A stretch of 34,485 bases of DNA from assembly GCF_041261205.1 (NCBI RefSeq), contig NZ_JBGCCH010000055.1:1-34485 (forward strand), read 5' to 3'. A program made the translations under genes and the position numbers. This document shows positions 12 through 34,485 of the stretch, one piece after another. Within the stretch, counting starts at the first letter, position 1. The number at the start of each line of letters is the position of its first letter. The notes beneath the pieces were generated by a model, which searched no databases, was not told the origin of the DNA, and saw nothing but the letters and a program-made list of their open reading frames with translations. Origin of the DNA: Catenulispora sp. MAP5-51. GTDB lineage: Bacteria; Actinomycetota; Actinomycetes; Streptomycetales; Catenulisporaceae.

Positions 12-476
12 CGGTTCGTTCCCCTCGGTCGCGTCGGCAGGGCTTGTCCTACAGTGCCGGTTCTCGGGAGTCAAGTTCGCGCTGTACGAAACCGCAGGCC
101 ACGAAGCTAACCGCAGCGCGCGGACTTTACTCCCGGGGTTCGGCGCTGTACCCCTTGGGGCTGACGACGCGACCGAGGGGAACGAACCGCCACCACCCCA
201 CAAACCGCCACCGCTAAGCAGCGACCCGGCCACCCGATGGAGCCGCGCCAGTTCCCCGAGGGAGCCGAGGCCCGCCGGAGGCACCGGCTCTTCACCATGC
301 TCTTGATCTTGACCTTGATCTAGACCTGCCGCCCACCCGGCCGCCACCGAAGGATCCTGAACCAGCCCCGGGCCCGTGAACACCGCAACCCCCGGCCGAC
401 CGACCGACCAGCCACCACCGAACCCCGAACCCGCAAACCATGCGCGAAGCCGTCAAGAAACGCCTGTCGCCTGTAA
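12..476 (-). repeat. Dispersed repeat copy A with long terminal hairpin
   Basis: This gene-free stretch follows the 3' end of the adenylyltransferase-like gene. Read on the minus strand it starts with the family head (430-456, containing GGCTTCGCGCATGGTTTGCG). A core follows at 255-320 (CAAGGTCAAGA and GCCTCCGGCGGGC), then a long imperfect hairpin. The outer arms 12-36 and 165-189 are perfect 25-bp inverted repeats, and weaker pairing continues inward to about position 100. Three other copies of the head and core lie at 8.6, 9.3 and 33.9 kb. I see no convincing gene inside. Confidence 0.7.
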
Positions 477-547
477 CCCACCCACCAACAGCACCGCACC
501 GCCGCACCACACCACAGACAGCTGGCGAGCGCTTGCAACGACCCCAC

Positions 548-1042
548 TCAGAAGTGAGTGGCGATCCCGAAAGCCTTGCGCAGCTGAGCCATATCGTGCC
601 GATCGCGTTCGGCCGGCTCATAGCCCTGATGGAAGTAGACCTGCTGCTCGGCCGACAGGCAGGGCACCGCAGTCCCCGCGATGACGCCGGTGACGAAACA
701 CGAAGCCGGATAGGCAAAAGGCCGGTCCGCCTCCAACGAAGCCTGCGACGCCGACCCGTCCTCGCCGAAGACCAGCGGGTGCAGATCGATCTCCCGTCCC
801 CGTGCGTCGGCCATCACGAACCGCACCGGGCGCCAATCCACCGTCTCGGCGAACCCCGCGCGCGCCAAGGCCGCCACGAGCGCGGGCTCCTGATCGAGCC
901 GGTGCATCAGGTCCACGTCGCGGTGCGGGCGCGTCTGGTCGCCGACCAGGGCGTCGATGCCCCAGCCGCCGCCGATCCAGACGTCGGCGCCCGCCGCCCG
1001 CAGGAGGGCGACGAGCTCCAGTACGTCCTCGGCCGTCATCAC
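548..1042 (-). CDS. Aminoglycoside 2''-adenylyltransferase-like nucleotidyltransferase
   Basis: Small protein of 164 residues. Residues 23-45 carry the nucleotidyltransferase signature: a GGGWGID motif followed by RPHRDVDLM, the D-x-D metal-binding pair of the Pol-beta fold. Length and motif order match the family that includes the aminoglycoside 2''-adenylyltransferases (ANT(2'')/LinB-like), which transfer AMP from ATP to a small substrate. Many chromosomal members have no shown resistance role, so the substrate is unknown. Translation can start at GTG 1042 or at the next codon, ATG 1039; a G-rich stretch 10 bases upstream fits GTG slightly better. It lies 49 bases downstream of metH on the same strand. 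Its stop codon sits in a perfect 7-bp stem, 4-base loop hairpin (544-561). Confidence 0.8.
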   Translation of the reverse strand: MMTAEDVLELVALLRAAGADVWIGGGWGIDALVGDQTRPHRDVDLMHRLDQEPALVAALARAGFAETVDWRPVRFVMADARGREIDLHPLVFGEDGSASQASLEADRPFAYPASCFVTGVIAGTAVPCLSAEQQVYFHQGYEPAERDRHDMAQLRKAFGIATHF

Positions 1043-1059
1043 CGGCGTCTCGCCCCCCG

Positions 1060-1107
1060 TTGAAGCAACCTCACCCCGCCTTGCAGCAACCTCACCCCGC
1101 GTTGAAG
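1060..1107. repeat. 21-bp tandem repeat spanning the metH stop codon
   Basis: Two 21-bp units (1060-1080 and 1081-1101) differ at two positions, and a third partial unit lies at 1102-1107. The metH stop codon (1092-1094) is inside the second unit. Because the period is a multiple of three, the duplicate supplies a second in-frame TGA downstream. Confidence 0.85.
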
Positions 1108-4100
1108 TAAGAGGCCTCGGGGTGGTGCGCCACGATCGCGTCCGTCGACTGCTCCGGGTGCAGCTGGTACTCCTCCGACAGCCGCACGTTGATCCGCTCC
1201 GGCTTCAGCAGCTCCACGATCTTCGTCCGGTCCTCAAGGTCCGGGCACGCCGGGTACCCGAACGAGTACCGGCACCCGCGGTACTCCACCTTGAACAGCC
1301 CCTCGGTCGAGTCCGGGTCCTCCGCGGCGAAGCCCAGTTCGTCGCGCACGCGCGCGTGCCAGTACTCGGCCAGGGCCTCGGCGAGCTGGACGGACAGGCC
1401 GTGGAGCTCCATGTACTCGCGGTAGGAGTTGGCCGCGAACAGCTCCGCCGTCGCCTCGGCGATGCGGGCGCCGACCGTCACCAGCTGGAACGGGGCCACG
1501 TCCACCTCGCCGGATTCCTGCGGGCGCCAGAAGTCGGACAGGCACAGGTGGCGGTCGCGGCGCTGGCGCGGGAAGGTGAAGCTGGTGCGCTGGTCGCCGC
1601 TCTCGTCGAGGATCAGCAGGCTGTCGCCCTTGCTCACCGCCGGGAAGTAGCCGTAGACCACGGCCGCGTCCAGCAGGTTCTCGGTCTGCAGGCGCTCCAG
1701 CCACATGCGCAGGCGCGGGCGGCCCTCGGTCTCGACCAGTTCCTCGTACGAGCGCCCGCCGGAGCCGCGTCCGGGCTTGAGCCCCCACTGGCCCAGGAAC
1801 AGCGCGCGCTCGTCGAGGTAGGGCGCGTACTCCGCCAGCCGGATGCCCTTCACCATGCGGTCGCCCCAGAACGGCGGCGCCGGGATCGGGTTGTCCAGCG
1901 CCACGTCGGAGCGTGCCGGGATCGGCTCGTCCGGGAGCTCGCGCAGCGGCCCGGAGGCCTTCACCCGCCGGGGACGCAGCGCCGGCAGCGAGGCCCCGGG
2001 CACGCCGGCCTTCACCGCCGCGACGGCGTCCATCAGGTTCAGGCCCTCGAAGGCGTCGCGCGCGTAGCGCACCTCGCCGTCGTAGAGCTCGGCGAGGTCC
2101 TGCTCGACGTAGGCCCGGGTCAGCGCCGCGCCGCCGAGCAGCACCGGCCAGCGGCCGGCCACGCCGCGGGTGTTCATCTCCTCCAGGTTCTCCTTCATCA
2201 CCACCGTGGACTTCACCAGCAGCCCCGACATGCCGATGGCGTCGGCGGTGTGCTCCTCGGCGGCGTCCAGGATCGTCTGGAGCGGCTGCTTGATGCCGAG
2301 GTTGACCACGTTGTAGCCGTTGTTGGACAAGATGATGTCGACCAGGTTCTTGCCGATGTCGTGGACGTCGCCCTTCACCGTGGCCAGCACGATCGTGCCC
2401 TTGCCGGTGGAGTCCGACTTCTCCATGTGCGGCTCCAGGTGGGCCACCGCCGCCTTCATGGTCTCCGCGCTCTGCAGCACGAACGGCAGCTGCATCTCGC
2501 CGGAGCCGAACAGCTCGCCGACCGTCTTCATGCCGTCCAGCAGCACCTCGTTGACGATCTCCAGGGCGGGGCGCTCCTCCAGCGCCGAATCCAGGTCGGC
2601 CTCCAGGCCCTTGCGCTCGCCGTCGATGATGCGGCGCTTGAGCCGCTCGTTCAGCGGCAGCGCGGCCAGCTCGTCGGCGCGGGAGGCCTTCAGCGAGGCC
2701 GCGTCCACGCCCTCGAACAGCTCCAGCAGCCGGGTCAGCGGGTCGTAGCCCTCGGCGCGCCGGTCATAGACCAGGTCCAGGGCGACCTTGCGCTGCTCCT
2801 CCGGGATGCGGGCGATGGGCAGGATCTTGGAGGCGTGCACGATCGCCGAGTCCAGGCCGGCCTCGACGCACTCGTGCAGGAACACCGAGTTCAGCACCTG
2901 GCGCGCGGCCGGGTTCAGGCCGAAGGAGATGTTCGACAGGCCCAGCGTGGTCTGCACGTCCGGGTGCCGGCGCTTGAGCTCCCGGATGCCCTCGATGGTC
3001 TCCAGGCCGTCGCGGCGCGACTCCTCCTGCCCGGTACAGATCGTGAAGGTGAGACAGTCCACGAGGATCGAGTCCTCCGGCACGCCCCAGTTCGCCGTGA
3101 TGTCCTCGATCAGCCGCTCGGCGATCGCCACCTTGTGCTCGGCGGTGCGGGCCTGGCCCTGTTCGTCGATGGTCAGGGCGATGACGCCGGCGCCGTGCGA
3201 GGACACCAGCTCCATGATCCGCGCGAAGCGGGAGTCCGGGGCGTCGCCGTCCTCGTAGTTCACCGAGTTGATGACCGCGCGGCCGCCGAGGGTCTCCAGC
3301 CCGGCCTGCAACACCTGCGGCTCGGTGGAGTCCAGCACGATCGGCAGCGTGGAGGCGGTCGCGAACCGGCTGGCGACCTGCTTCATGTCCTCGACGCCGT
3401 CCCGGCCCACGTAGTCGACGCAGAGGTCGAGCATGTGCGCGCCGTCGCGGATCTGGTTGCGGGCGATCTCCACGCACGCGTCCCAGTTCTCGGCCAGCAG
3501 CGCCTCGCGGAACGCCTTGGAGCCGTTGGTGTTGGCGCGCTCGCCGATCGCCAGGTAGCTGATGTCCTGCCGGAACGGCACGTGCTGGTACAGCGAGGAG
3601 GCCCCCGGCTCGCGCTTGGGGTCGCGCTGCGGCACCTCGCGTCCGCCGAGGCTCTCGACCAGCTGGCGCAGGTGCTCCGGCGTGGTGCCGCAGCAGCCTC
3701 CGATCAGCGCGATGCCGAACTGGTCGACGAAGCGCTGGTGCCAGTCGACGAGTTCCTCGGGGCTCAGCGGGTAGTGCGCGCCGTCGGAGGTCAGCACCGG
3801 CAGGCCGGCGTTGGGCATGCAGGACAGGCCGATCGTGGAGTGCTTGGCCAGGTAGCGCAGGTGCTCGCTCATCTCGGCCGGGCCGGTGGAGCAGTTCAGG
3901 CCGATGCGCTCGATGCCCAGGGACTCCAGCGCGGTCAGCGCCGCGCCGACCTCGGTGCCCAGCAGCATCGTGCCGGTGGTCTCAAAGGCCGCCGAGGCCC
4001 ACACCGGGATGTCGACCCCGGCCGCGCGCGCCGCCGCCTTGGCGCCCAGCACCGAGGCCTTGATCTGCAGCAGGTCCTGGCTGGTCTCCACCAGCAGCGC

Positions 4101-4601
4101 GTCGGCGCCGCCGGCGATGAGCCCGGCGGCCTCGGCTTGGTAGGCGTCGCGCAGCGTGGCGTAGCCGATCTGGCCCAGGGACGGCAGCTTGGTGCCCGGG
4201 CCGATCGAGCCGATCACCCAGCGCGGCTTGTCGGCGGTGGCGAAGCCGTCGGCGACCTCGCGGGCCAGCCGGGCCCCGGCTTCGGAGAGCTCGAAGACGC
4301 GGTCGGAGATGTCGTAGTCGCCGAGGTTGGTGTGGTTGGCGCCGAAGGTGTTGGTCTCCACGCAGTCCACGCCGGCGCGGAAGTACTCTTCGTGCACGGC
4401 CTGCACGATGTCCGGGCGGGAGATGTTGAGGATCTCGTTGCAGCCCTCGTGGCCCTGGAAGTCGTCCAGCGTCGGGTTCTGCGCCTGCAGCATGGTGCCC
4501 ATGGCCCCGTCGGCCACCACCACCCTGGTCCGGAGTGCTTCACGGAGTGCGGCGATCCGGGCGTTTCCGGCGTGCGCGGAAGGGGCGGCGGTCGAGGCCA
4601 T
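1092..4601 (-). CDS. metH: Cobalamin-dependent methionine synthase
   Basis: This 1169-residue enzyme transfers the methyl group of 5-methyltetrahydrofolate to homocysteine through cobalamin in the cytoplasm. Domains are in the usual order. The homocysteine domain covers about residues 15-330, with zinc ligands Cys237, Cys303 and Cys304 (in GLNCSTG and IGGCCGTTPEH). Next come the pterin-binding domain (about 350-620), the cobalamin cap and Rossmann domains with the axial His747 in GDVHDIG, and the C-terminal S-adenosylmethionine reactivation domain. I start it at ATG 4601 because GGAGGAA lies just upstream; a reading frame continues 30 codons further up but has no family similarity. No cobalamin or SAM riboswitch is recognisable in the 156-base gap upstream. 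Confidence 0.97.
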   Translation of the reverse strand: MASTAAPSAHAGNARIAALREALRTRVVVADGAMGTMLQAQNPTLDDFQGHEGCNEILNISRPDIVQAVHEEYFRAGVDCVETNTFGANHTNLGDYDISDRVFELSEAGARLAREVADGFATADKPRWVIGSIGPGTKLPSLGQIGYATLRDAYQAEAAGLIAGGADALLVETSQDLLQIKASVLGAKAAARAAGVDIPVWASAAFETTGTMLLGTEVGAALTALESLGIERIGLNCSTGPAEMSEHLRYLAKHSTIGLSCMPNAGLPVLTSDGAHYPLSPEELVDWHQRFVDQFGIALIGGCCGTTPEHLRQLVESLGGREVPQRDPKREPGASSLYQHVPFRQDISYLAIGERANTNGSKAFREALLAENWDACVEIARNQIRDGAHMLDLCVDYVGRDGVEDMKQVASRFATASTLPIVLDSTEPQVLQAGLETLGGRAVINSVNYEDGDAPDSRFARIMELVSSHGAGVIALTIDEQGQARTAEHKVAIAERLIEDITANWGVPEDSILVDCLTFTICTGQEESRRDGLETIEGIRELKRRHPDVQTTLGLSNISFGLNPAARQVLNSVFLHECVEAGLDSAIVHASKILPIARIPEEQRKVALDLVYDRRAEGYDPLTRLLELFEGVDAASLKASRADELAALPLNERLKRRIIDGERKGLEADLDSALEERPALEIVNEVLLDGMKTVGELFGSGEMQLPFVLQSAETMKAAVAHLEPHMEKSDSTGKGTIVLATVKGDVHDIGKNLVDIILSNNGYNVVNLGIKQPLQTILDAAEEHTADAIGMSGLLVKSTVVMKENLEEMNTRGVAGRWPVLLGGAALTRAYVEQDLAELYDGEVRYARDAFEGLNLMDAVAAVKAGVPGASLPALRPRRVKASGPLRELPDEPIPARSDVALDNPIPAPPFWGDRMVKGIRLAEYAPYLDERALFLGQWGLKPGRGSGGRSYEELVETEGRPRLRMWLERLQTENLLDAAVVYGYFPAVSKGDSLLILDESGDQRTSFTFPRQRRDRHLCLSDFWRPQESGEVDVAPFQLVTVGARIAEATAELFAANSYREYMELHGLSVQLAEALAEYWHARVRDELGFAAEDPDSTEGLFKVEYRGCRYSFGYPACPDLEDRTKIVELLKPERINVRLSEEYQLHPEQSTDAIVAHHPEASYFNAG

Positions 4602-4651
4602 GAGGGTTCCTCCGGGGTGAGCGGCTGCTCTTACTTGACCAATCGGACACG

Positions 4652-4680
4652 ATTCTAGTCCGCGGGGCATTCTGAGACAG
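4652..4680 (-). promoter_or_regulatory. Candidate metH promoter
   Basis: On the minus strand CTGTCT (4675-4680) and TAGAAT (4652-4657) are separated by 17 bases. This would give a short leader of about 45 bases before the metH start at 4601. The -35 matches the TTGACA consensus at only three positions, so this is tentative. Confidence 0.35.
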
Positions 4681-4726
4681 GGCGTGTCCACGTGGTGGAG
4701 CGTCCCCGGTGCGGGCCTGCTCCGGC

Positions 4727-4762
4727 CGTGTTCCCGGGCGTGTTGTCAGGCGTGTTGTCAGG
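4727..4762. repeat. 12-bp tandem repeat spanning a stop codon
   Basis: Two identical units of CGTGTTGTCAGG (4739-4750 and 4751-4762) are preceded by a diverged third (4727-4738). The stop codon of the neighbouring gene (4758-4760) lies in the last unit. The 12-base period repeats the TGA in frame. Confidence 0.85.
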
Positions 4763-6626
4763 AGCTGGAGGCCGGCGCCGCAGGGTGGGAGCCCGCCGCG
4801 GCGATCGCCGCCTCGACCGGCATCCGGCGGGTCGCGATCGCCCACGCCACCTCGGCCCACAGCTCCGGACGGCCGTCCAGACGCGCGGCGACCAGGCCTT
4901 CGAGCGGGAAATGGCCGGTCCGGTCCAGTTCCTGCTCGGCACGCAGCCCCTGGGCGCCGAAATCCTCGGCATCCAACAGGTCGACCCAATGCCGGCGCGG
5001 CGTCCGCCGGGCGGCCTCGACCAGCGGTTCGGCGCTGCCGGCGGCCATGGACGCGCGGACCGCGGGCAGCACCGCGTCCAGGCTCCCGGCGCGCTCCAGG
5101 TCCAGCGCCCACACCGGCTCCGGCCCGGCCGCCACGGCCAGGGCGCCGTACACGCAGGTCAGCTCGGCCGGCTCGGTGCGGCTCCGCAGGCCCGCGACCA
5201 CCTGGTGCAGCAGGGCCGGGTCGTCGGTCAGCCACCAGGCCAGGTCGACGAGCCTGTCGCCGCCGGCGGCGGTCCACCGCAGCGCCTCGTCCACCCCGGC
5301 GAGCCCGGCGAACTCGCGGAACACCCGGCTCAGGACATCCGGCGGCACGATCCGCTTGAGCAGGACCTCGCGGGCGTGGCCGAGGTCCATCTGCTCCAGG
5401 ACGTAGTCGGGGCACAGCACGTTCTTCAGCAGCCGGTGGTACCGGCGGACGGAGGTGTACGCCAGGTCATGGTCGACCAGCACCCGGCTCAGCGGGGCGC
5501 TGCCGAGCAGCCACTCCCCCTGGTCGTCGGCGGTCTGCGGCTGGTCCGGCGGGCCGACCAGTTCGTTCTCGACCAGCCGGTCGAGGTAGCGCGCCGCGAC
5601 CGGGTGCGGGGCCAGGGCGAGCAGGATGTTCTGCGAGGCGTAGGCGGAGCGGTCCGGATGCAGGAAGCGGTGGAGACCACCGGGCGCCCGATCCGAACGC
5701 AGCAGTTCGGCGACCGAGCCGGCGAAGCTGCCGCTGAGGTCGATCACCCGCGCCCAGCGCTGGTCGTCCTCCCCCAATGCCTCGGCCAGACGGCGCGCGA
5801 GCAGAACCCTGACGTCGCCGGTCGCCCGGCGCAACCAAGGACGCGAATACTCCGCCGGGGTGCAGACCGCCAGCGCCAACACCAGCGCCGCCGGCCGGGT
5901 GCGCTCCACGATCTGCCTGGCCGTCAGGGACCCGGCGCACAGCGCTTCCAGCGCCAGGGCCCGGATGCGGGCCACGGCGGCGCCGAGGTCGGCGCCGGTG
6001 GGGGCGTCTTCCTCGAGCATGCGGAGATAGGCGTCCAGGCCCAGGGGTCGCGGCGGCACATGCTCGGGCTGCTGGACCAGCCGCCGCGCGAGCATCCGCC
6101 GCACGGGCCCGGGCCCCCACTGCGAGATGTGTGCGACGACGGCCGGCGCCAACGGCAACTCGGCGGTCGCCACCGCCTCGGCGAGCTGATCGGCGGACAG
6201 CGCGGCCAGCGCGGGCACGACATCAGCCGGCCGCGCCGAGCCGAGCAGCCGCAGCAGCGCGACCGGACCGGGGACCGCGTCGGGCGCGGCCTCGCGCAGG
6301 CGGAGGCTTTCGGTGGGCCAGGCTGGCGAGGTCGTGGCGATGGGCACAGTGGATATGACGAGTCCGGCGGCCGATGCTGTTGCAGTTGGCGCGGTGGATT
6401 CGGCGCTCGGCCCGGTTGGCACCGCGAGAACGGCCGCCGCAGCCAACGCACTCGGCCCGGTTGGCACCGCAGGCGCGGCCGCCGCAGCTAGCGCACTCGG
6501 CCCGGCTGGCGCCGCAGGCACGACCGCCGCAGCTAGCGCACTCGGCCCGGTCGCCGACCCCGCCCCGTCGGCCGCCCCCGGCGCGCTCGATCCCGTCGGC
6601 ACCGTCACGAACGCCTGTTCAGCCAC
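4758..6626 (-). CDS. Unrecognised 622-residue protein with N-terminal repeats
   Basis: I do not recognise this family. The first 110 residues or so are low-complexity Ala/Pro/Thr sequence with three 15-residue repeats of the form GPSALAAAxxPAxPT. The remaining 500 residues look globular and mostly helical, with many Leu/Ala/Arg stretches such as RRMLARRLVQQPEHV. There is no obvious signal peptide, membrane segment or catalytic motif. The start is GTG 6626, without a convincing ribosome binding site and directly next to a small hairpin at 6627-6643; a downstream start past the repeats cannot be excluded. It lies 156 bases upstream of metH on the same strand and might share a transcript with it, but nothing links it to methionine metabolism. 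Confidence 0.75.
   Translation of the reverse strand: MAEQAFVTVPTGSSAPGAADGAGSATGPSALAAAVVPAAPAGPSALAAAAAPAVPTGPSALAAAAVLAVPTGPSAESTAPTATASAAGLVISTVPIATTSPAWPTESLRLREAAPDAVPGPVALLRLLGSARPADVVPALAALSADQLAEAVATAELPLAPAVVAHISQWGPGPVRRMLARRLVQQPEHVPPRPLGLDAYLRMLEEDAPTGADLGAAVARIRALALEALCAGSLTARQIVERTRPAALVLALAVCTPAEYSRPWLRRATGDVRVLLARRLAEALGEDDQRWARVIDLSGSFAGSVAELLRSDRAPGGLHRFLHPDRSAYASQNILLALAPHPVAARYLDRLVENELVGPPDQPQTADDQGEWLLGSAPLSRVLVDHDLAYTSVRRYHRLLKNVLCPDYVLEQMDLGHAREVLLKRIVPPDVLSRVFREFAGLAGVDEALRWTAAGGDRLVDLAWWLTDDPALLHQVVAGLRSRTEPAELTCVYGALAVAAGPEPVWALDLERAGSLDAVLPAVRASMAAGSAEPLVEAARRTPRRHWVDLLDAEDFGAQGLRAEQELDRTGHFPLEGLVAARLDGRPELWAEVAWAIATRRMPVEAAIAAAGSHPAAPASSS
6406..6550. repeat. 45-bp in-frame coding tandem repeat
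   Basis: Three 45-bp units begin at 6406, 6451 and 6496, each starting CTCGGCCCGG, and a partial fourth begins at 6541. They encode the 15-residue repeats of the unrecognised protein. A period that preserves the frame and near-identical units point to recent expansion. Confidence 0.9.
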
Positions 6627-6643
6627 CAGGGCATCTTGCCCTG
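6627..6643. other. Small hairpin at a gene start
   Basis: CAGGGCA and TGCCCTG form a perfect 7-bp stem with a 3-base loop. The hairpin abuts the GTG start at 6626, where a ribosome binding site would be expected, and follows the monooxygenase-side intergenic space. It could reduce initiation or help terminate upstream transcription. Confidence 0.5.
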
Positions 6644-6683
6644 TCCGCGCGCGGTTGAGTACCGCCGGGGTCGCCCGCCGGTG

Positions 6684-8528: not shown

Positions 8529-8559
8529 TGTGAGAGCTGGCGCGGCTGGATGGTGTGTG

Positions 8560-8989
8560 CGTGGCTTGGGGTGGCTGGTGCGGTTTTGGTGGTGATTTTA
8601 GAGGCTTTTTACGGCTTCGCGCATAGTTTGCGGGATCCGCTGGTGGCGCAGTTCAGGTAAGCGTCGCGGGTCGCACTGGCGGCCGGCGGTCGGCGTGTTC
8701 ACGACCGCGCACAGGTCCGAGTCACTGCGCACACGTCATTGCTGGCGGCTGTCTGTCGCGTTTGGTGGGCACCTAAGATCAAAAGCAGGCACCTCCGGCG
8801 GGCGCTCTACAGCGGGGGGCGCCCCCTGCGGACCTGCTTGATGCCGGCGGCCCGCGACTGTTCGGCTTTGTCTTCGTGCGTGGGCGCGCTGCGCTTGTTG
8901 GTGGCGGTGCTGCTTGTGGTCGCCATGTTCCGGGTCCCCGGAACAAAGAGCCCTCTATGGTGTGGCGGGATCCACCTGTCACACAGTGG
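8560..8989 (+). repeat. Dispersed repeat copy B
   Basis: This copy starts downstream of the TetR gene in the same orientation. The head at 8597-8655 contains TTTTAGAGGC and ACGGCTTCGCGCATAG and ends near GGATCCGCTGG. The core at 8772-8812 contains AAGATCAAAAGCAGGC and CCTCCGGCGGGCG. GCTGCTTGTGGTCGCC (about 8910) recurs in copy D. It ends in the left arm (8957-8989) of a hairpin shared with copy C. Small reading frames here have no convincing start or family resemblance. Confidence 0.8.
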
Positions 8990-9017
8990 TCGGCCGCGAC
9001 TGGCCTACGTGCGTGAG

Positions 9018-9330
9018 CACGGTGTGACACGTGGATCCCGCATCCCATACAGGTGACCAACACTCGGACCGCCGCCCACGCGGGGTGTTGATGATCCCTC
9101 AGAGTCTGGAGTGCCCGCCGGAGGCGCCTGCCTTTGATCTTCGGCGCCCACCAAACGCGGCCGGCAGCCGCCAGACCAAACGTGTGCGCAGTGACTCGGA
9201 CCGGTGCGCGGTCGTGAACGGGCGAGCCGCCGGCCGCCAACGTGAAACGAGCGCCTCAACCGAACTGCGCCACCAGCGGATCCCGTAAACCATGCGCGAA
9301 GCCGTAAAAACCTTGACTGTCAACCCACGA
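9018..9330 (-). repeat. Dispersed repeat copy C, inverted to copy B
   Basis: Read on the minus strand this copy starts downstream of the G1 peptidase gene. The head is at 9262-9312 and the core at 9113-9158, and 9018-9049 pairs with 8957-8989. Over about 220 bases it is clearly similar to copy B in the opposite direction, so 8.6-9.3 kb is a large imperfect palindrome. No gene is supported inside it. Confidence 0.8.
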
Positions 9331-9367
9331 ACAAACCGCACCCGCCAAGCACCCCGAAGCGCCAAAA

Positions 9368-9398
9368 GCGCCCGCCGCGAAGGGATCGTGGCGGGCGC
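9368..9398 (-). terminator. Candidate terminator hairpin after the G1 peptidase gene
   Basis: GCGCCCGCC (9368-9376) pairs with GGCGGGCGC (9390-9398) around a 13-base loop. It lies 136 bases beyond the peptidase stop and has no T-tract, as is common for actinomycete terminators. From here to 9533 I see no other feature except the palindrome CGACCGGTCG at 9423-9432. Confidence 0.5.
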
Positions 9399-9533: not shown

Positions 9534-10280
9534 CTACTTCCGGCGCGCGTTGCCTCCACCGCCGGGGACCATCGCGAAGGAGCCGTTGTTCAGCGCCGTG
9601 GGCCCGTAGCCGCCGCTGGTCAGCGCCTGCGGGTTCGAGGCGTCGAAGGGCTGGCCGTCGACGGTCACGTTGCTGAAGTCCTGCTCGGAGAACGACGGGT
9701 AGCTCGACGTCGGCGACTCGATGACCGCCTCGGCGCTGGCGTCCTGGCCGTTGTACTGCTGCTGGGTGCTCTCGGTCCAGCCGGCGGTGTTGTCGGTCAG
9801 GGTGACGGTGTAGTTGCCGGTGCCGTCGTCGGAGACGCTGCCGGTGAAGGAGTCGCCGGCCGAGACCGGGTCGTTCCAGTACACCGGCTGCGCCGGGTAC
9901 ATCTCGTACCAGGCCGAGTAGACCGGGCTGCCGGAGGAGCAGTCGGTCTGCACGCCGGTCTGCTCCACGCTCTCCGAGCCGTAGCCGTCGATGCCGACCC
10001 ACGGCGCGTACAGGTCGTTGCTGGTGTTGCAGGTGACCTGCGGCTCGGTCCAGGATCCGGAGATGCTGGTGAAGTTGCCGGTGGCGACGTAGCCGCCCCA
10101 GTTGCTGTCCTGGAAGTTCTTCACGCTCCGGTGGTGGTGCCCGAAGGACACCGGCGTCCGGCTGTGCGCGGCCGCCGCGGGCGCGCCGGTGACGCCGGCG
10201 CCGGCGGTGAGGGCCGCGCAGGCCAGTGCGGCGGCGGCCAGGCGGGCGCGGCGGGGCGCCGGGAAGGTGGGGGTGTGCAT
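9534..10280 (-). CDS. Secreted glutamic peptidase, family G1
   Basis: A 248-residue exported protein. Residues 1-38 form a signal peptide (arginines, a long Ala/Leu core, AAAAHS near the cleavage site). The mature part matches the eqolisin/G1 fold: NWGGYVATG, then SGSWTEPQVTC, then APWVGIDGYGSESVEQTG with catalytic Gln107, and AEAVIESP with catalytic Glu188. Family members are acid-active endopeptidases with a Gln/Glu dyad. Cys84 and Cys114 could form a disulfide. The start at ATG 10280 has GGAG upstream. The gene follows a LuxR-type regulator on the same strand with a 203-base gap containing possible control sites, so that regulator may control it. Confidence 0.9.
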   Translation of the reverse strand: MHTPTFPAPRRARLAAAALACAALTAGAGVTGAPAAAAHSRTPVSFGHHHRSVKNFQDSNWGGYVATGNFTSISGSWTEPQVTCNTSNDLYAPWVGIDGYGSESVEQTGVQTDCSSGSPVYSAWYEMYPAQPVYWNDPVSAGDSFTGSVSDDGTGNYTVTLTDNTAGWTESTQQQYNGQDASAEAVIESPTSSYPSFSEQDFSNVTVDGQPFDASNPQALTSGGYGPTALNNGSFAMVPGGGGNARRK

Positions 10281-26868: not shown

Positions 26869-26933
26869 CCCACATGACGCCACAGGGATGTGCCCGGTGG
26901 CCGGTGGCGGGCGATCGGGAGGTGGCGGCATCC

Positions 26934-28148: not shown

Positions 28149-28155
28149 ACAGTCG

Positions 28156-28183
28156 TTGACTGTTGTTGTTTTCCCGCTACATT
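28156..28183 (+). promoter_or_regulatory. Promoter of the GH25 muramidase pair
   Basis: TTGACT (28156-28161) and TACATT (28178-28183) are 16 bases apart in an unusually AT-rich patch (GTTGTTGTTTT in the spacer). Expected transcription start is near 28190, leaving a leader of about 145 bases. Confidence 0.7.
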
Positions 28184-28196
28184 GACTCAATGCCGA

Positions 28197-28246
28197 CGGC
28201 GGCGAGCCGGGGTGCGAAACAGCACCCTGACAGCTCCCCACCGCCG
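28197..28246 (+). promoter_or_regulatory. Structured leader element upstream of the GH25 genes
   Basis: Three stacked helices: CGGCGG/CCGCCG (28197-28202 with 28241-28246), GAGC/GCTC (28204-28207 with 28233-28236) and GGGTGC/GCACCC (28210-28215 with 28222-28227, loop GAAACA). They are separated by uneven internal loops of 1/4 and 2/5 bases. It begins about 7 bases after the predicted transcription start. I do not recognise it as a known riboswitch. Confidence 0.5.
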
Positions 28247-28335
28247 AAGGCACAGGACGGGGGCGTCTTCGGGCGTTCGCGCTCCCTGTCCACGTCGTGG
28301 TTCCACCATCAGGTCTCACCCCACAGGAGAGCTCA

Positions 28336-29079
28336 ATGGTCAAGATCTCGTCGCACAGCGCCCCCCGCACCCGGCGCCGCACCCTCACGGCGCTGGCGAT
28401 CGGCGCTCTGGCCGCCACCGCGGCGCTGGCGCCGTCGATGGCGCAGGCCGCAGGCGACCCCCATGGCGACGACGTGTCGTCCCACCAGGGCAACGTGAAC
28501 TGGTCGGCGACCAAGGCCGCCGGCGCCCAGTTCTCGTACTCCAAGGCGACGGAGGGCACGTACTACACCAACCCCTACTTCGCCCAGCAGTACAACGGCG
28601 CCTACAACGCCGGCCTCATCCGCGGCGCGTACCACTTCGCCATCCCCAACGGCGGCACCGGCGCCTCCCAGGCCGACTACTTCGTCGCGCACGGCGGCGG
28701 CTGGTCCAAGGACGGCAAGACCCTGCCGGGCGCCCTGGACATCGAGTACAACCCCTACGGCGCCGAGTGCTACGGCCTGAGCCAGGCCAGCATGCGCAGC
28801 TGGATCGCCTCGTTCATCAACGAGTACCACGCCAAGACCAGCCGCTGGGCCGTCATCTACACCACCACCGACTGGTGGACCACCTGCACCGGCAACTACA
28901 GCGGCTTCGCCGCCAACGACCCGCTGTGGGTCGCGAACTACAACGGCTCGGCGGGCACGCTGCCGGCCGGCTGGGGCTTCTACACCATCTGGCAGTACGC
29001 CGACTCCGGCTCCATGGCCGGCGACCAGGACGTCTTCAACGGCGACTACAGCCGCGTGCAGGCGCTGGCCAACGGCTGA
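28336..29079 (+). CDS. Secreted GH25 muramidase 1
   Basis: 247 residues. A signal peptide (RTRRRTLTALAIGALAATAA, cleavage near AQAAGD) leads directly into a GH25 domain of about 205 residues. Asp46 in DDVSSHQGNVNW and Asp135/Glu137 in GALDIEYNPYG match the catalytic residues of Cellosyl-type lysozymes, which hydrolyse the MurNAc-GlcNAc bond. FSYSKATEGTYYTNPYF, LIRGAYHFA and the C-terminal WQYADSG are also typical. The start at ATG 28336 has GGAGA. No wall-binding domain is attached. It is followed 15 bases later by its paralogue, so the pair is probably one transcript. Confidence 0.95.
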   Translation: MVKISSHSAPRTRRRTLTALAIGALAATAALAPSMAQAAGDPHGDDVSSHQGNVNWSATKAAGAQFSYSKATEGTYYTNPYFAQQYNGAYNAGLIRGAYHFAIPNGGTGASQADYFVAHGGGWSKDGKTLPGALDIEYNPYGAECYGLSQASMRSWIASFINEYHAKTSRWAVIYTTTDWWTTCTGNYSGFAANDPLWVANYNGSAGTLPAGWGFYTIWQYADSGSMAGDQDVFNGDYSRVQALANG

Positions 29080-29094
29080 GACGACGGTGTCCTG

Positions 29095-30051
29095 ATGTCC
29101 CCCCTCGGAATCCGGTCCGCGCGCTCCTCGCGCCGCCTGGCCGTCCTGGCGCTGGCCCTGGCCACCGCCGGAGCGGTGCTCCTGCCGGCCGCCGGCGGCA
29201 CGGCCGCGGCAGGCGCCCCCGTCGTCCAGGCGAACCCGCACCCGGGTTACGCGCGGACCGTATCGGGCCAGCTGGTCAAGGTCGACACCACCCGGCACAA
29301 CACGCCGGTGCACCCCACGGTGGCGACCCACCCGCAGCTCGACCACATGGGTTCCACGATCCCGGCCCACGAGCCGGCCGCGCGCAGCGCCGCGCGGCCG
29401 GCCGTGGCGCCGGACTCGGTGCCGCAACTGCCGGGCATCGACGTCAGCGCCTACCAGGGCAACCTGGACTGGGCCGGTATCGCGCCCAACATCGACTTCT
29501 CTTATGCGAAGGCGAGTGAGGGTACTTACTACACGAACCCCGACTTCTACAACCAGTACGTCGGGCCCTACGACCAGGGGCTGATCCGCGGCGCCTACCA
29601 CTTCGCGAACCCCAACGACTCCAGCGGGTCGGCGCAGGCCGACTACTTCGTCGACAACGGCGGCGGCTGGTCCTCCGACGGTCAGACCCTGCCCGGGATG
29701 CTCGACATCGAGTACAACCCCTACGGCTCGGAGTGCTACGGCCTGTCCGGAAGCCAGATGACCAGCTGGATCTGGGACTTCGCGAACGAGTACGCCTCGC
29801 GGACCGGCGTCTACCCGGTGATCTACTCGACCACCGACTGGTGGAACACCTGCACCAGCGACGACACGAACTTCGCGGACTACGACCCGCTGTTCATCGC
29901 GAACTACGCGGCCTCCGGCGGCGGCACGCTGCCTCCGGGCTGGGGCTACTACACCTTCTGGCAGTACGCGGACTCCGGTTCGGAGCCCGGTGACCAGGAC
30001 GTGTTCAACGGCCCCTACAGCCAGCTGCAGGTCCTGGCCAGGAACGGCTGA
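29095..30051 (+). CDS. Secreted GH25 muramidase 2 with pro-region
   Basis: 318 residues, a tandem paralogue of muramidase 1. The signal peptide (SARSSRRLAVLALALATAGA) is followed by an extra segment of about 75 residues, rich in His/Pro/Ala (VDTTRHNTPVHPTVATHPQL), that may be a propeptide or a linker. The GH25 domain starts at PGIDVSAYQGNLDW and has catalytic MLDIEYNPYG, FSYAKASEGTYYTNPDF and FWQYADSG. Conserved Cys residues around ECYG and NTCTS may form a disulfide in both paralogues. The start at ATG 29095 has only a weak ribosome binding site, which suggests reinitiation after muramidase 1. Confidence 0.94.
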   Translation: MSPLGIRSARSSRRLAVLALALATAGAVLLPAAGGTAAAGAPVVQANPHPGYARTVSGQLVKVDTTRHNTPVHPTVATHPQLDHMGSTIPAHEPAARSAARPAVAPDSVPQLPGIDVSAYQGNLDWAGIAPNIDFSYAKASEGTYYTNPDFYNQYVGPYDQGLIRGAYHFANPNDSSGSAQADYFVDNGGGWSSDGQTLPGMLDIEYNPYGSECYGLSGSQMTSWIWDFANEYASRTGVYPVIYSTTDWWNTCTSDDTNFADYDPLFIANYAASGGGTLPPGWGYYTFWQYADSGSEPGDQDVFNGPYSQLQVLARNG

Positions 30052-30073
30052 GCGACCCTCGGCGCCTGAAGAC

Positions 30074-30110
30074 GAAGTCCCCGCCTCCGAAAACCGGAGG
30101 CGGGGACTTC
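30074..30110 (+). terminator. Strong terminator of the muramidase pair
   Basis: GAAGTCCCCGCCTCCG (30074-30089) and CGGAGGCGGGGACTTC (30095-30110) form a perfect 16-bp stem with a 5-base loop. It can also serve the convergent beta-propeller gene. A 13-bp direct repeat (TTCGTGTRCTGAC, 30111-30136) follows. Confidence 0.93.
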
Positions 30111-30148
30111 TTCGTGTGCTGACTTCGTGTACTGACCTGAAGCGGCTC

Positions 30149-31258
30149 TTAGCGCGTCACCGCCGCCAGACCGGCCGCGCTGGCCGGGATCCCGGTGGTG
30201 GTGACGCTCGGCGCCCCCGGCGTCCCGTCGGCGGCCAGCGGAACGTCGTCGATCCGGCCCTTCGCGGTGTCCAGGATCCACAGCGCGCCGCCGGACACGG
30301 CCGCGTCGCCGACGTGGCCGCCGGGGGCCGCGGCGGTCGCGTCGAGCAGACGCAGCGCACCGTCGGCGCCCACCGCGTAGGTCGACACGGTGCCGGACCC
30401 GGCGTTCTCGACGTAGGCGGTCCGGCCGTCGGGCCCGACGGCGACCCAGCAGGCCGCGGTCTGGCCGTCCGGCAGCGCGGCGGCGGTGGTGCGCAGCGCG
30501 CCGTGCCGGACCTGGTACCCGCTGGCCGAGCTCGCTCCGGCGCCGGCTCCGACGTTGGAGACCACGGCGGTCCCGCCGCGGCCGAACGCGAAGCCGAACG
30601 GCGTCTGGCCGCCCGAGGCGCTCTTCGAGGCCTGGCCCGGGACGCCGAAGAAGTCCAGCGCGAACACGTCGAGCGTGCTGGAGCCCTTCTCCGTCACCAG
30701 CAGCGCGCGGCCGTCGGGGGTCACGGCCACCTCCGCCGCGCCCGAGGTGCCGGCCGACAGCCCGCGCTGCGCGACCTGGGCCAGGGTGTCGCCGAAGCGC
30801 CAGTAGGCGGTGACAGAGTTCTGCCCCAGGACGTACACGTGGTCGCCCTGGACGGCGACGCTGACCGGGCCCGTGCCGGTCCCGAACGTCCCGAGCGGCC
30901 GCAGGGCGCCCGAGGGCGCCACGGCGAACTCCGAGACGCTGTCGGAGCCGCCGTTGACGGCGAACAGCGTGCGGCCGCCGTCGGCGACCGTCACAGCCCC
31001 CTGCGATCCCAGTCCGGCGCCCGTTCCGGCGCCCCCGGTCGCGTAGGCGCCCGCCGACGAGCCGTCGGCGTGGAAGGCCAGGACCTCGTTGCCGGCGGCG
31101 GCGTTGGTCTCGGTGTAGACGGTGGTGTGCGCGGCTCCCGCCGGACGGTTCGCGGCCGCCTGGGCCTGACCGCCGGTCACGGCGACGGCGCCCAGGGTCC
31201 CGGCGACGACTCCGGCAATGGACAGTGCGTTCTGGGCTTTGCTCTTGCCCTTGCTCAT
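30149..31258 (-). CDS. Secreted beta-propeller protein (lactonase/YncE-like)
   Basis: 369 residues. An N-terminal signal sequence (SKGKSKAQNALSIAGVVAG, cleavage near AQAAAN) is followed by repeated blades with motifs such as GAVTVADGGRTLFAVNGGSDSVSEFAV, AAEVAVTPDGRALLVTEKG and CWVAVGPDGRTAYVENAGSGTVSTYAV. This places it among seven-bladed propellers related to 6-phosphogluconolactonase (PF10282) and YncE. Exported actinomycete members have no settled activity; the cytoplasmic lactonase role is unlikely here. The start at ATG 31258 has AAGG upstream; GTG 31267, with GGAG, is a close alternative. It is divergent from the TPR gene. Confidence 0.85.
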   Translation of the reverse strand: MSKGKSKAQNALSIAGVVAGTLGAVAVTGGQAQAAANRPAGAAHTTVYTETNAAAGNEVLAFHADGSSAGAYATGGAGTGAGLGSQGAVTVADGGRTLFAVNGGSDSVSEFAVAPSGALRPLGTFGTGTGPVSVAVQGDHVYVLGQNSVTAYWRFGDTLAQVAQRGLSAGTSGAAEVAVTPDGRALLVTEKGSSTLDVFALDFFGVPGQASKSASGGQTPFGFAFGRGGTAVVSNVGAGAGASSASGYQVRHGALRTTAAALPDGQTAACWVAVGPDGRTAYVENAGSGTVSTYAVGADGALRLLDATAAAPGGHVGDAAVSGGALWILDTAKGRIDDVPLAADGTPGAPSVTTTGIPASAAGLAAVTR

Positions 31259-31422
31259 GGCCTTCACCCTGATCACTCCTGAATGCTGGTCGGTACTCGC
31301 TGACACAGGGGCAGTGGCGGGGCCGGGCCGATCTGTTACTGCTCCATTCCTTACAGAAATCGAACGCGCGGCCGGGGCGGCATCCCCGCTGGTCGCGGCC
31401 GTCTCTAGACGCCCCGACGGCG

Positions 31423-31455
31423 TGTGCTCCAGCACATGGTTCAGCTCGCTACTCT
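31423..31455 (+). promoter_or_regulatory. Palindrome over the TPR gene promoter
   Basis: TGTGCT-CC-AGCACA (31423-31436) is a perfect palindrome. It contains GTG-N6-CAC, the general form of a CRP/FNR-family site. TACTCT at 31450-31455 could be the -10, in which case the palindrome covers the -35 and would act as a repressor site. Confidence 0.45.
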
Positions 31456-31502
31456 GTTCTCTTCCGCGATCACGCCACGGATCGCCGTGTCAGGGGAGAA
31501 CG

Positions 31503-32390
31503 ATGAGCCGGGTTCAGCTGTCGGGCGCTGAAGCCATGAAGTTGCTGCAACGAGGTGAGGACGCCGCCGACATCCGGGACTGGCCGGTCGTCGCCGCCTG
31601 CTACGAACAGTTCCTCACCGCTTTTCCGGACACCCCGATCAGCCCCGAGCTCTGGTTCGACGCGGCGCTGGCCAACAAGTTCCTGCGGAACTGGCAGAAG
31701 GCGTACGAGTTGGGCCGGCAGGCGGCGCTGCGGGCCGGGGAGCCGTCCGGCAGCCCGGCGTGGTGGAACCTGGGGATCGCGGCCACCATGGTCGGCGACT
31801 GGGGCACGGCGCGCGAGGCGTGGACCAACTACGGCGTGCCGCTGTCCCCCGGCGAGGGCGAGATCGAGGACGGGTTCGGCTCGGCCCTGGTGCGCCTGGA
31901 CCCCGACGGCGAGGCCGAGGTGGTCTGGGTGCGGCGCATCTGCCCCACCCGGGCCCGCATCCTGTCGGTGCCCTACGGCCGGCGCCGCTTCGGCGAGATC
32001 GTCGTACACGACGGCGCCCCGACCGGCGAGCGCCGCGTCGAGGACCACACCTTCCCGGTCTTCGACGAGCTGGCGCTGTGGCGGGAGTCGCCGGCCGCGA
32101 CCTGGCTGGCCCAGGTCACCGCGCCGGTATCGCGGGACATGACCGCGCTGGCGGACGCCTTCGACGACGCCGGGCTGGCGATGGAGCCGGTGGACAGCCT
32201 GACGTTCCACTGCGCGTGCTGCAGCCACGGCGCGCTGACGACCGGCACCACGGCGCTGGCCGGCGCGCGCGACGTGCTGCTGGCGGCGCCGGACGAGGCG
32301 ACGGCCACCGGGATCCTCACGCGCTGGGCCGTGGCCGGCGTGGGGCGGGCTTGGCACGCGGTCCACGCCAAGGCGGGAAACCCTCAGTGA
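31503..32390 (+). CDS. TPR-containing protein of unknown function
   Basis: 295 residues, apparently cytoplasmic. Residues 10-110 contain two or three tetratricopeptide-like helical pairs (RDWPVVAACYEQFLTAFPD, LWFDAALANKFLRNWQKAYELGRQAAL and AWWNLGIAATMVGDWGTAREAWTNYG), which usually mediate protein contacts. The rest is a beta-containing domain (VVWVRRICPTRARILSVPYGRRRFGEIVVHDG). FHCACCSHG near residue 240 is a Cys/His cluster that could bind metal. The same architecture occurs in uncharacterised actinomycete proteins. The start at ATG 31503 has GGGGAGAA. No operon partner is evident. Confidence 0.85.
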   Translation: MSRVQLSGAEAMKLLQRGEDAADIRDWPVVAACYEQFLTAFPDTPISPELWFDAALANKFLRNWQKAYELGRQAALRAGEPSGSPAWWNLGIAATMVGDWGTAREAWTNYGVPLSPGEGEIEDGFGSALVRLDPDGEAEVVWVRRICPTRARILSVPYGRRRFGEIVVHDGAPTGERRVEDHTFPVFDELALWRESPAATWLAQVTAPVSRDMTALADAFDDAGLAMEPVDSLTFHCACCSHGALTTGTTALAGARDVLLAAPDEATATGILTRWAVAGVGRAWHAVHAKAGNPQ

Positions 32391-32737
32391 GCGAGGCGTA
32401 ATTCTGAGGCCCGGCAAGGGGAATCGCGTCTAATACAAGCTTCGTAGATTGGCTACGCTGATCCGCCAAGCGCGCGGGCGAGTATCCCGTGGTGGCGCAT
32501 CGGCGCTGGTCCGGGCGCCACCGAGAGAACCGGGACAAGCCGTCACCAACCGCCTGAAGGCGTGTCGTTACCGCTCATAACCCACACCTCATATCACCCT
32601 CAACCTGCCTTCCAGCATGACTCAATACCCCGATATGCTCCGGCGCTGTCCACGAGCACTTATGCCGCTGACAACCCAGTCACACTAAGTGAACCGGCCG
32701 CGAGGTCCCGGGGCCGGCCACAGAGAAGAGCCACCAC
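32391..32737 (+). promoter_or_regulatory. Long gene-free leader before the LAHTG surface protein
   Basis: There is no gene in these 347 bases. GGTGGCGC (32491-32498) can pair with GCGCCACC (32515-32522), or GGCGC (32501-32505) with GCGCC (32515-32519), so two alternative hairpins compete. GCCGTCACCAACC (32549-32561) and a CGCC-TGAA-GGCG hairpin follow. This is faintly like the 3' part of actinomycete c-di-AMP (ydaO-yuaA) riboswitches, but the 5' half is not recognisable. Confidence 0.35.
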
Positions 32738-33694
32738 ATGACCACTAGCCGAATCGGCCGGGGGGCGCTCGTCACGCTCGCCGGTGCGGCCGCGTCGCTG
32801 GCCGGTGCCGCCGGCGCCGCGAACGCCTGCGAGAAGCCGCCGCCGGAGCACACCTGCTCCCTGAGCAACAACGACGTGCAGTGGGCGGCGAACGGCGCCG
32901 ACGGCAAGCCGGCCACCGCGTTCCATTCCAGCTCGTCGTTCACCCGGGTCAACGCCGAGCCGGTCAACGGATTCACGGTCCAGCTGTCGCAGCGCGCGAT
33001 CGCCGACCAGTGCGCCGGCGGCGTCGACGTCTCGCTGGCCTCGTACACCGCCGAGGGCCCGACCTGGGAGACCTCCGGCACCCAGACGTTCGTGGACTTC
33101 GCGACCGTGCACCTGAGCACGGCTTCGAAGAGCTCGGAGACGCAGTCGCTCACGGTGAAGCTGCCCGGCGCGCCGCCGTGCTTCGGCCAGATCGACTTGT
33201 ACCACGGCAAGACGAAGTACGACGGCAGCAACGGCCACCAGATACCGAACCACGACAAGGGCATCAACACGCCCTACGGCCTGTTCGCCGCCTGGAACGG
33301 CTCGGACGCCGGCGGCTGCGCCGTGACGCCTCCGCCGACCACCCCGCCCCCCACCACCCCGCCGACGACCCCGCCGACGACGCCTCCCACGACGCCGCCG
33401 ACGAAGCCCACCACGCCGCCGACGACGAGTCCGACCTCGCACCCCTCGACGCCGGCCTCCTCGACCCCGCCGAGCACGCCGCCGACGACGCCGACCACCC
33501 CGACGCCCAGCGGCAGCACCAGCACGCCGGCCACCCCGGCCACGCCGACCACCACCCCCGGCACCCCGACCCTGGCCCACACCGGCGCCAACGTCGGCGA
33601 GGTGAGCCTGGTCGCGCTGATGTTCTTCGGCGCGGGCGGCGGCGCGATGTTCGCCTCGCGCAAGGTCAAGGCGGCCGAGGCGCGCAAGCACTGA
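32738..33694 (+). CDS. Wall-anchored surface protein with LAHTG sorting signal
   Basis: 318 residues. A signal peptide (RIGRGALVTLAGAAASLAGA, cleavage near ANACEK) is followed by a globular beta-rich domain of about 170 residues with four or more cysteines. A stalk of about 75 residues is almost pure Pro/Thr/Ser (TTPPTTPPTTPP). The C-terminus is a sortase signal: LAHTG at 279-283, a hydrophobic stretch EVSLVALMFFGAGGGAMF and the basic tail SRKVKAAEARKH. LAxTG is the motif preferred by class E sortases of actinomycetes. No sortase gene is in the window. The start at ATG 32738 has AGAGAAGAG upstream. The domain's function is unknown; adhesion or surface structure is likely. Confidence 0.9.
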   Translation: MTTSRIGRGALVTLAGAAASLAGAAGAANACEKPPPEHTCSLSNNDVQWAANGADGKPATAFHSSSSFTRVNAEPVNGFTVQLSQRAIADQCAGGVDVSLASYTAEGPTWETSGTQTFVDFATVHLSTASKSSETQSLTVKLPGAPPCFGQIDLYHGKTKYDGSNGHQIPNHDKGINTPYGLFAAWNGSDAGGCAVTPPPTTPPPTTPPTTPPTTPPTTPPTKPTTPPTTSPTSHPSTPASSTPPSTPPTTPTTPTPSGSTSTPATPATPTTTPGTPTLAHTGANVGEVSLVALMFFGAGGGAMFASRKVKAAEARKH

Positions 33695-33708
33695 GCAGGA
33701 CCGAACAC

Positions 33709-33734
33709 CACGCACAGCACGCACAGCACGCAAG
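33709..33734. repeat. 9-bp tandem repeat after the surface protein stop
   Basis: CACGCACAG occurs at 33709-33717 and 33718-33726, followed by CACGCAAG. It begins 15 bases after the stop and just before the terminators, as after the amidase at 25217. Confidence 0.85.
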
Positions 33735-33746
33735 TCACGGGGCCCA

Positions 33747-33817
33747 GCCGCCGTGGGTCAGGGCACTGACTCACGGCGGCCTTCGAACCGCCGACCGGCC
33801 GCGACCGGTCGGCGGTT
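33747..33817 (+). terminator. Tandem terminator hairpins
   Basis: The first hairpin (33747-33780) pairs GCCGCCGTG and GTCAG with CTGAC and CACGGCGGC around GGCA. The second (33786-33817) pairs AACCGCCGACCGG with CCGGTCGGCGGTT perfectly around 6 bases, followed by CTGTGT. Together they end the surface protein transcript. Confidence 0.9.
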
Positions 33818-33859
33818 CTGTGTCCCCTCCAAAATCGGCGCCCCTGGCTTATGTGGGGG

Positions 33860-34295
33860 TCAGGGTGGGGGTGTTGGTGCGGTTGGGTGGTGGGTTTTAG
33901 AGGCTCCTTTTACGGCTTCGCGCAGGGTTTGCGGGATCCGTTGGTGGCGCGGGTCGGGGGTGGCGTTGGTTTCGTGGGGCGGTGGTGGTGTGGGTAGGTG
34001 GTCGGCTCTACTGCGACAGTCAAGGGCAAGGTCAAGAGCTTGAAGAGCGCCTCCGGCGGCGCCTGCGCGGCGAGCGGCCTCGCTCCGGGGAGTGGGGGGC
34101 CGCGCTGTCAGGAGGCGGACGCTGCTTGTGGTCGCCTCTGTCCCGGATTCCCCGTCGCTTCGTCGCCTTACGGAAGCAGGCCGGTCCGGTGGTATCAAGC
34201 CGGATCGCCCAGCTGGTGGTCCAGTATCAGCGACTTGACACCACCGGCCCGGCCTGCTTGGCTACGCCCGCCGAAGCGACGGGGAATCCGGGACA
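33860..34295 (+). repeat. Dispersed repeat copy D with long terminal hairpin
   Basis: This copy starts downstream of the surface protein and its terminators, in the gene's orientation. The head at 33884-33956 closely follows copy B (GGTTTTAGAGGC, TTTTACGGCTTCGCGCAGGG, GGATCCGTTGG). The core at 34020-34092 contains CAAGGTCAAGAG and GCGCCTCCGGCGGC. GCTGCTTGTGGTCGCC at about 34121 matches copy B. It ends in a hairpin with perfect 24-bp outer arms (34139-34162 and 34272-34295) and further imperfect pairing inward. No gene is supported. Confidence 0.8.
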
Positions 34296-34391
34296 ACCCC
34301 GGCCTGTGGTGTGGACGGGGTCCACTTGGTTCGCACAGGCTGCGGTGACGTGGCGGGCGTGGGGCGCGGGAACCCTTCCCACAGGTGGGTT

Positions 34392-34485
34392 TGTCCCGGA
34401 TTCCCCGTCGCTTCGGCGGTGCTTGCACAACCATCCCGGACTGGGCGGTGTCAAGCCGCCGATACTGGACTACAGCAACAGTGAT
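34392..34485 (+). repeat. Third copy of the terminal hairpin arm, truncated by the window end
   Basis: 34392-34415 repeats the 24-bp arm of copy D exactly (TGTCCCGGATTCCCCGTCGC and on). The following bases, including GGTGTCAAG and GATACTGGAC, also match the reverse complement of copy D's right arm. The rest lies outside the window. Confidence 0.75.

Follow-up and report, generated by a model that had tools for sequence, protein, structure and literature searches.

A palindromic, MITE-like element with ISL3-type termini is biased towards gene 3′ ends in Catenulispora

Why should the copies of a dispersed repeat all lie just past a gene and read in the direction of that gene? The question arose in a 34,485-bp stretch of DNA from Catenulispora sp. 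MAP5-51, here called the window, which is the whole of contig C55 in a draft assembly of 10.9 Mb and 87 contigs. A first-pass annotation of the window described four copies sharing a head and a core, judged their common sense unlikely if insertion were random, and offered 3′ untranslated region (UTR) elements, small RNAs or a non-autonomous mobile element targeting gene ends as readings. All four arms do lie downstream of a gene, each in the sense of that gene. They belong to three elements, one complete and two halves cut by the contig ends: the supposedly independent copies at 8560–8989 (plus strand) and 9018–9330 (minus strand) form the two arms of a single element (about 8539–9363), and those at 12–476 (minus strand) and 33860–34295 (plus strand) are both cut by the ends of the contig. 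The elements and their neighbours are as follows.

1–533, minus strand: cut element half, third subfamily by eye; head at 411–472 (nhmmer, 41 bits); the outer end at about 533 is diverged and an uncertain reading by eye, and the terminus has no confident score
7903–8502, plus strand: TetR-family regulator gene (PF17940, PF00440), convergent left neighbour of the complete element
8539–9363, no strand: complete palindromic element, 825 bp, B subfamily, with two inward-facing arms
8595–8655, plus strand: head of the left arm of the complete element (profile, 57 bits)
9260–9310, minus strand: head of the right arm of the complete element (profile, 57 bits)
9364–9398, minus strand: terminator-like hairpin (9368–9398) followed by TTTT (9367–9364)
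9534–10280, minus strand: peptidase A4 family gene (PF01828), convergent right neighbour of the complete element
33786–33817, plus strand: terminator-like hairpin, by eye, between the stop codon of the gene at 32738–33694 and the element
33829–33836, plus strand: presumed target-duplication copy CCAAAATC, its partner copy past the contig end
33837–34485, plus strand: cut element, about 60% of full length, A subfamily; terminus GGCGCCCCTGGC at 33837 (score 36), head at 33893–33956

Inverted-repeat detection gave 202-nt arms that are 84% complementary in the complete element. As RNA, this element folds with an energy of −592 kcal/mol, whereas 20 shuffled sequences averaged −385 (z = −28); for the cut copy at the window's right end, z was −9.4. 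The arms are thus not one-way copies, as had been assumed, but halves of a symmetric structure. A symmetric element flanked by convergent genes is counted twice, so the four same-sense copies are not four independent draws.

The shared head and core are real features of a large family. With up to three mismatches allowed, the 20-base head matched the host genome 99 times (52 forward, 47 reverse), compared with 0 forward and 1 reverse for the reversed pattern, and the matches often paired in opposite orientation, mostly 0.7–1.2 kb apart. A profile search for the head, from which one match below 25 bits was dropped, yielded 116 arms: 58 are single and the others form 29 complete pairs. Of the single arms, 33 point towards a contig end no more than 1.4 kb away; the other 25 lie within contigs with no recognised partner arm. 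A hand tally, which also includes one complete pair and two arms recognised later, puts an arm in front of 36 of the 174 contig ends; in practical terms, many breaks between contigs of this draft assembly fall at the palindromes.

Read from the outside inward, each side of an element consists of a terminus, GGCGCC(C/T)CTGAC-TTATGTGTGGGT, a linker, the head, a core (GCCTCCGGCGGC) and nested hairpins, and the left half recurs on the right as an inverted, diverged copy, making the whole a near-full palindrome. The termini can be written GGCGCCCCTGAC-TTATGTGTGGGT, or as an inverted pair GGCGCCCCTGAC...GTGTGGGT; where readable, they mostly lie about 55–90 nt outside the head. Among eight complete copies with a duplication of 0–1 mismatch and no internal insertion, seven measured 1028–1071 bp and one 1295 bp. 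By eye we distinguished at least three subfamilies, one for each element in the window. Left and right arms do not form separate classes: similarity between elements was 0.777 for left–left, 0.764 for right–right and 0.769 for left–right comparisons, as expected since orientation is arbitrary, and we rejected side-specific arms. A codon-usage gene caller placed no coding-scored gene inside 28 of the 29 complete pairs, and the single copy for which open reading frames were listed held overlapping frames only. The exceptional pair, of 2.4 kb (L056; host C9, about 279910–281440), carries an IS256/Mutator-type insertion (PF00872) between two hairpin blocks, at about 1910–3440 of the locus with approximate limits. 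Its protein was considered as the autonomous transposase of the family and rejected, being of Mutator/IS256 type and lodged in the middle of the element.

Two further observations concern the form of individual copies. At the start of host contig C58 (L107:12–86), part of a group II intron (RF00029, 59.8 bits) lies within the head of one arm and splits it; the start of the contig falls inside the intron. Clusters in Catenulispora acidiphila (for example L298 and L301) include many short derivatives, about 130–700 bp aligned, in which seemingly only outer arm parts are kept; their layout suggests internal deletion of the palindrome.

The family bears the marks of transposition. Exact 8-bp target duplications stand beside GGCGCC-type termini in 6 of the 29 complete pairs (GGTTAAGC, AGAAAAGC, TCATTATC, TTTTCTCA, GCATAGGG and TGATTTTT), and under a stricter end rule they were present in 5 of 29, compared with a mean of 0.16 and a maximum of 3 in 2,000 shuffles of partners. 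Both sides carry a GGCGCCCCTGAC-like terminus (up to 3 mismatches in 12) in 12 of the 29 pairs. At a terminus score of at least 24, 56 of the 116 arms qualified as against 7 of 2,000 control scans; a confident terminus was absent at the remaining 60. The window's complete copy has diverged termini and no intact target duplication, and in C. acidiphila an automatic rule found a duplication in 2 of 43 clusters, with one mismatch each, the ends there being diverged or outside the aligned part.

Related genomes supplied empty sites. At the locus of the window's complete copy, both flanks match in relative G008 with 858 bp missing and 4 bp in their place, and the copy is also absent from G006, G002 and G009. 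A second host copy (C8:95064) has an empty site in G006 and G001, with the G008 flanks 1.7 kb apart, and one C. acidiphila copy has an empty orthologous site in G001 and G006. At these three readable loci the element is therefore not common to the species compared; for a fourth (L109), no genome among the matches listed held both flanks together. Terminal inverted repeats, target-site duplication and the lack of an internal transposase gene are the hallmarks of miniature inverted-repeat transposable elements (MITEs). These are usually a few hundred base pairs long, and we call the present element MITE-like because its length, mostly 1.03–1.07 kb, exceeds that. Our main reading, to which we assign a probability of roughly 0.85, is that the family consists of large MITE-like foldbacks, non-autonomous DNA transposons that an ISL3-family transposase inserts into A/T tracts following hairpins. 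Among the three readings first proposed, the non-autonomous mobile element at gene ends is thus the one that fared well, backed by the termini, the 8-bp duplications and the empty sites together with the ISL3 match and the hairpin enrichment described below.

The candidate mobiliser emerged from the termini. A terminus search of the host genome located a truncated gene (C1:523404–523784) that ends in the element's own terminus and encodes a match to the ISL3 transposase family. C. acidiphila (G004) has a full ISL3 insertion sequence of 1403 bp, with a 425-aa transposase (PF01610, 239 bits; NF033550, 267 bits against a cut-off of 180), termini GGCGCCCCTGACTTATCCGTGGGT / GGCGCCTCTGACTCATCCGTGGGT and target duplication CATTTTTC; over 119 residues, this transposase and the truncated host protein share 90% identity. 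The element thus shares its termini with an ISL3 insertion sequence, and it also has the terminus type, 8-bp duplications and A/T tracts of ISL3 insertion sequences (PF01610, NF033550). Like the element, the C. acidiphila insertion sequence sits directly after a terminator-like hairpin, in this case a perfect one, and its T tract. Unlike ISL3 insertion sequences, the element lacks a transposase, and no convincing similarity to the ISL3 insertion sequence showed in its interior. Likeness to the C. acidiphila sequence is confined to the outermost 16–34 bp (best E values 0.003 and 0.14, from one copy), and the window's complete copy gave no terminal match to it above noise. Because likeness is limited to the outermost bases, the case for mobilisation in trans depends on the termini, the length of the duplication and the target.

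In the host genome we found no full-length insertion sequence with matching termini; its full-length ISL3 (L193, C34:33458–34180) has different termini, GGCTCTTCG, and duplication GAAGAAAG/GAAAAAAG. ISL3 relatives in named genomes occupied 31 loci, of which 24 entered the end scan and 7 were left out. Inverted ends with an 8-bp duplication (up to 2 mismatches; 6 exact) were present at 10. Of those 10, 8 have ends of the GGCTC type; in most cases a subterminal GTGGGT is present and the duplications are A/T tracts. Taken from these sequence comparisons, the element is probably moved by an ISL3-type insertion sequence in trans. A survey (PMC9208149) reports ISL3 elements as over-represented between tandem genes, so that the convergent bias described below is not general for ISL3.

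We then examined target sites. Target 8-mers were collected at the 56 confident ends, to which some elements contribute both of theirs. A/T makes up 58% of these 8-mers, compared with 33% of intergenic DNA, and is most frequent at positions 3–6. At 35 of these ends no T tract reads into the element, which left 21 for a hairpin test, each from another element. A hairpin of −10 kcal/mol or lower precedes the T tract at 15 of the 21 sites, compared with 292 of 800 intergenic controls chosen by the same TTT rule (p = 0.002). When at least five A/T were required of both sets, a hairpin was present at 13 of 17 sites and 102 of 363 controls (p = 8e-5). Across other thresholds p ranged from 0.0008 to 0.013, the weakest giving a modest enrichment of 16 of 21 against 374 of 800 (p = 0.013). 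The window offers an example: the right end of its complete element abuts the TTTT of the hairpin at 9364–9398, past the stop codon of the gene at 9534–10280, and this hairpin is present at the same place in G008, G006, G002, G009 and G001, being kept in relatives that lack the element.

Gene context follows a similar bias. Using genes from our own codon-usage caller, and dropping one pair with no left neighbour, we classified 28 complete host copies as 14 convergent, 13 tandem and 1 divergent. Background gaps of at least 60 bp (n = 147), drawn from 16 host control regions (L115–L130), comprised 25 convergent, 82 tandem and 40 divergent (p = 3.7e-4 for the convergent and 6e-3 for the divergent class). 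In 12 of the 13 tandem copies the upstream stop codon is nearer than the downstream start. The complete genome of C. acidiphila, compared with the same host background, holds 30 convergent, 12 tandem and 1 divergent among 43 clusters, and all 12 tandem copies lie nearer the upstream stop. The same-sense pattern arises because a symmetric element sits at gene 3′ ends, and the outside gene accordingly reads into 86 of the 114 arms that have a neighbour, as expected of such an element. The bias first noticed in the window therefore holds genome-wide as a tendency; it is not absolute, since 28 of the 114 arms do not follow it. Random orientation or copies on the promoter side at similar frequency, which the first-pass annotation had named as grounds for abandoning its proposal, did not appear: divergent gaps hold 1 of 28 host and 1 of 43 C. 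acidiphila copies. Target choice and symmetry together explain the orientation puzzle, and a likely mobiliser can be named.

In the mechanism that we propose, an ISL3-family transposase would recognise the termini GGCGCCCCTGAC...GTGTGGGT and insert the element, with an 8-bp duplication, into short A/T tracts. In this GC-rich genome, tracts after a hairpin, that is, intrinsic terminators, would be favoured. The duplication would regenerate the T tract, so that insertion should leave termination intact and the gene's own terminator should stay working. Insertions at terminator sites would be tolerated and kept, those in genes and promoters would be lost, and a palindrome at gene 3′ ends would present each arm in the sense of the neighbouring gene. 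We infer in this way the mobilisation in trans by ISL3, the preserved termination and the split between targeting and selection. A conservative version would see a selfish passenger that lands where harm is small, the T tract being restored by duplication.

Could selection alone, by removing insertions from promoters and genes, produce the orientation bias with target choice limited to A/T tracts? The near-emptiness of divergent sites is what purifying selection predicts. Tract preference as the whole explanation was rejected, since weighting A/T tracts by the target profile seen here predicts 10% convergent and 30% divergent sites and 14 of 28 copies are convergent; the data therefore call for a preference for hairpins, for selection against insertions in promoters, or for the two together. 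The convergent share exceeds the supply of A/T tracts even when start-proximal tandem sites are removed (high-scoring sites numbered 22 convergent and 164 tandem, roughly half of the tandem weight lying closer to a start), and hairpins are more frequent than in controls when one tract rule is applied to both. We regard selection acting by itself as a doubtful account, one that nevertheless deserves to be weighed.

Another explanation, which we consider rather unlikely, is that copies of whatever origin have been domesticated and are kept between convergent genes as bidirectional terminators or 3′-end stabilisers. The convergent shares (14 of 28 host copies; 30 of 43 in C. acidiphila, nearly all of the latter with no recognisable duplication) would fit, as would the strong fold of the window's complete copy (z = −28) and the position of 24 of 72 adjoining gene ends in C. 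acidiphila within 30 bp of the aligned element part. Host copies with a duplication (up to one mismatch, hand-picked) are convergent in 3 of 9 cases against 41 of 62 for all other copies, a comparison of young and old that does not reach significance (Fisher p = 0.07) and that a convergent candidate omitted from it, L070, would weaken further. The two arms of an element resemble each other more than they resemble foreign arms (0.815 vs 0.769; permutation p = 2e-4, using 23 of the 29 pairs after leaving out pairs of at least 1000 bp), yet the own arm is the best match in just 5 of the 23. Domestication is also at odds with the three readable loci, which are not common to the species compared, with the host hairpin that already precedes the element at 15 of 21 testable ends, and with the absence, by eye, of a U tract after the arms. 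Survival in harmless places accounts for the same data.

Under our preferred reading of an ISL3-mobilised transposon, old copies may play a terminator role, as bidirectional gene ends. The boldest version holds that a terminator-choosing ISL3 lineage spread giant palindromes genus-wide and that the survivors serve as shared bidirectional 3′ ends of convergent pairs; we think it improbable. Were it true, the genus would have a transposon-built layer of transcription termination. Two questions follow: does an ISL3 transposase recognise terminators, and does the bacterium reuse insertions as gene ends?

Small RNAs and 3′ UTR elements were also put forward at the outset; a regulatory family of this sort, transcribed together with the gene upstream, is very improbable. 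The neighbouring gene reads into 86 of 114 arms and the fold is strong, as this idea would have it, but the neighbour reads away from the other 28, sense and antisense are nearly equivalent in so symmetric an element, and target duplications and empty sites mark a mobile element. A search of the window against Rfam gave no match at the gathering threshold, leaving these two options with no positive evidence. Least credible of all are REP/BIME-like palindromes moved by a RAYT or other transposase and terminator targeting in the manner of group IIC introns, which target terminators: the family is palindromic, intergenic and present in many copies, and the C58 arm is interrupted by a group II intron, but its 8-bp duplications and inverted termini match an ISL3 insertion sequence, and to our knowledge REP units and introns have neither such duplications nor such termini.

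We next asked how far the element extends. A complete-element query matched 10 of 10 Catenulispora genomes and 0 of the 187 other genomes searched in the order. Plasmid records held no match to the element, nor did the named genomes to the head, in a scan that may omit near relatives, and titles and abstract openings in the open-access literature yielded no description of this element.

Several known systems invite comparison. Galileo-type foldback elements have long inverted repeats, as does the Catenulispora element. REP/BIME palindromes are short and are not known to make target duplications, unlike this element of about 1 kb with its 8-bp duplications. Galileo (PMC4168063), from Drosophila, belongs to the eukaryotic P superfamily, and the likeness is one of analogy only; REP/BIME (PMC1525189) are likewise intergenic palindromic repeats in many copies. 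IS1272 (IS1182 family) and TnSha1 use hairpin targets, some of them confirmed terminators (PMC4923244). According to that paper, IS1272 deletes part of the stem-loop, makes no target duplication and belongs to another family, whereas the present element makes 8-bp duplications. The bacterial hitchhikers described in a review are likewise non-coding and strongly structured, share inverted termini and target duplications with insertion sequences and occur in many intergenic copies. Examples from that review are about 150–235 bp long, whereas the Catenulispora element is about 1 kb and palindromic nearly throughout; the term ISL3 is absent from the main text of the review on such elements. Our observations add an ISL3-linked, kilobase-long palindromic element to this group.

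The window has other features of note. The gene at 548–1039 (minus strand), beside the cut element at the contig start, matches the aminoglycoside-2''-adenylyltransferase family (PF10706, 213 bits). At 28336–30051 lie two neighbouring lysozyme-like genes of glycosyl hydrolase family 25, both with PF01183, and repeat detection indicates that the pair resembles a tandem duplication. A tandem repeat of 9–15-bp units occupies 33323–33510, within the gene at 32738–33694, which has no Pfam match.
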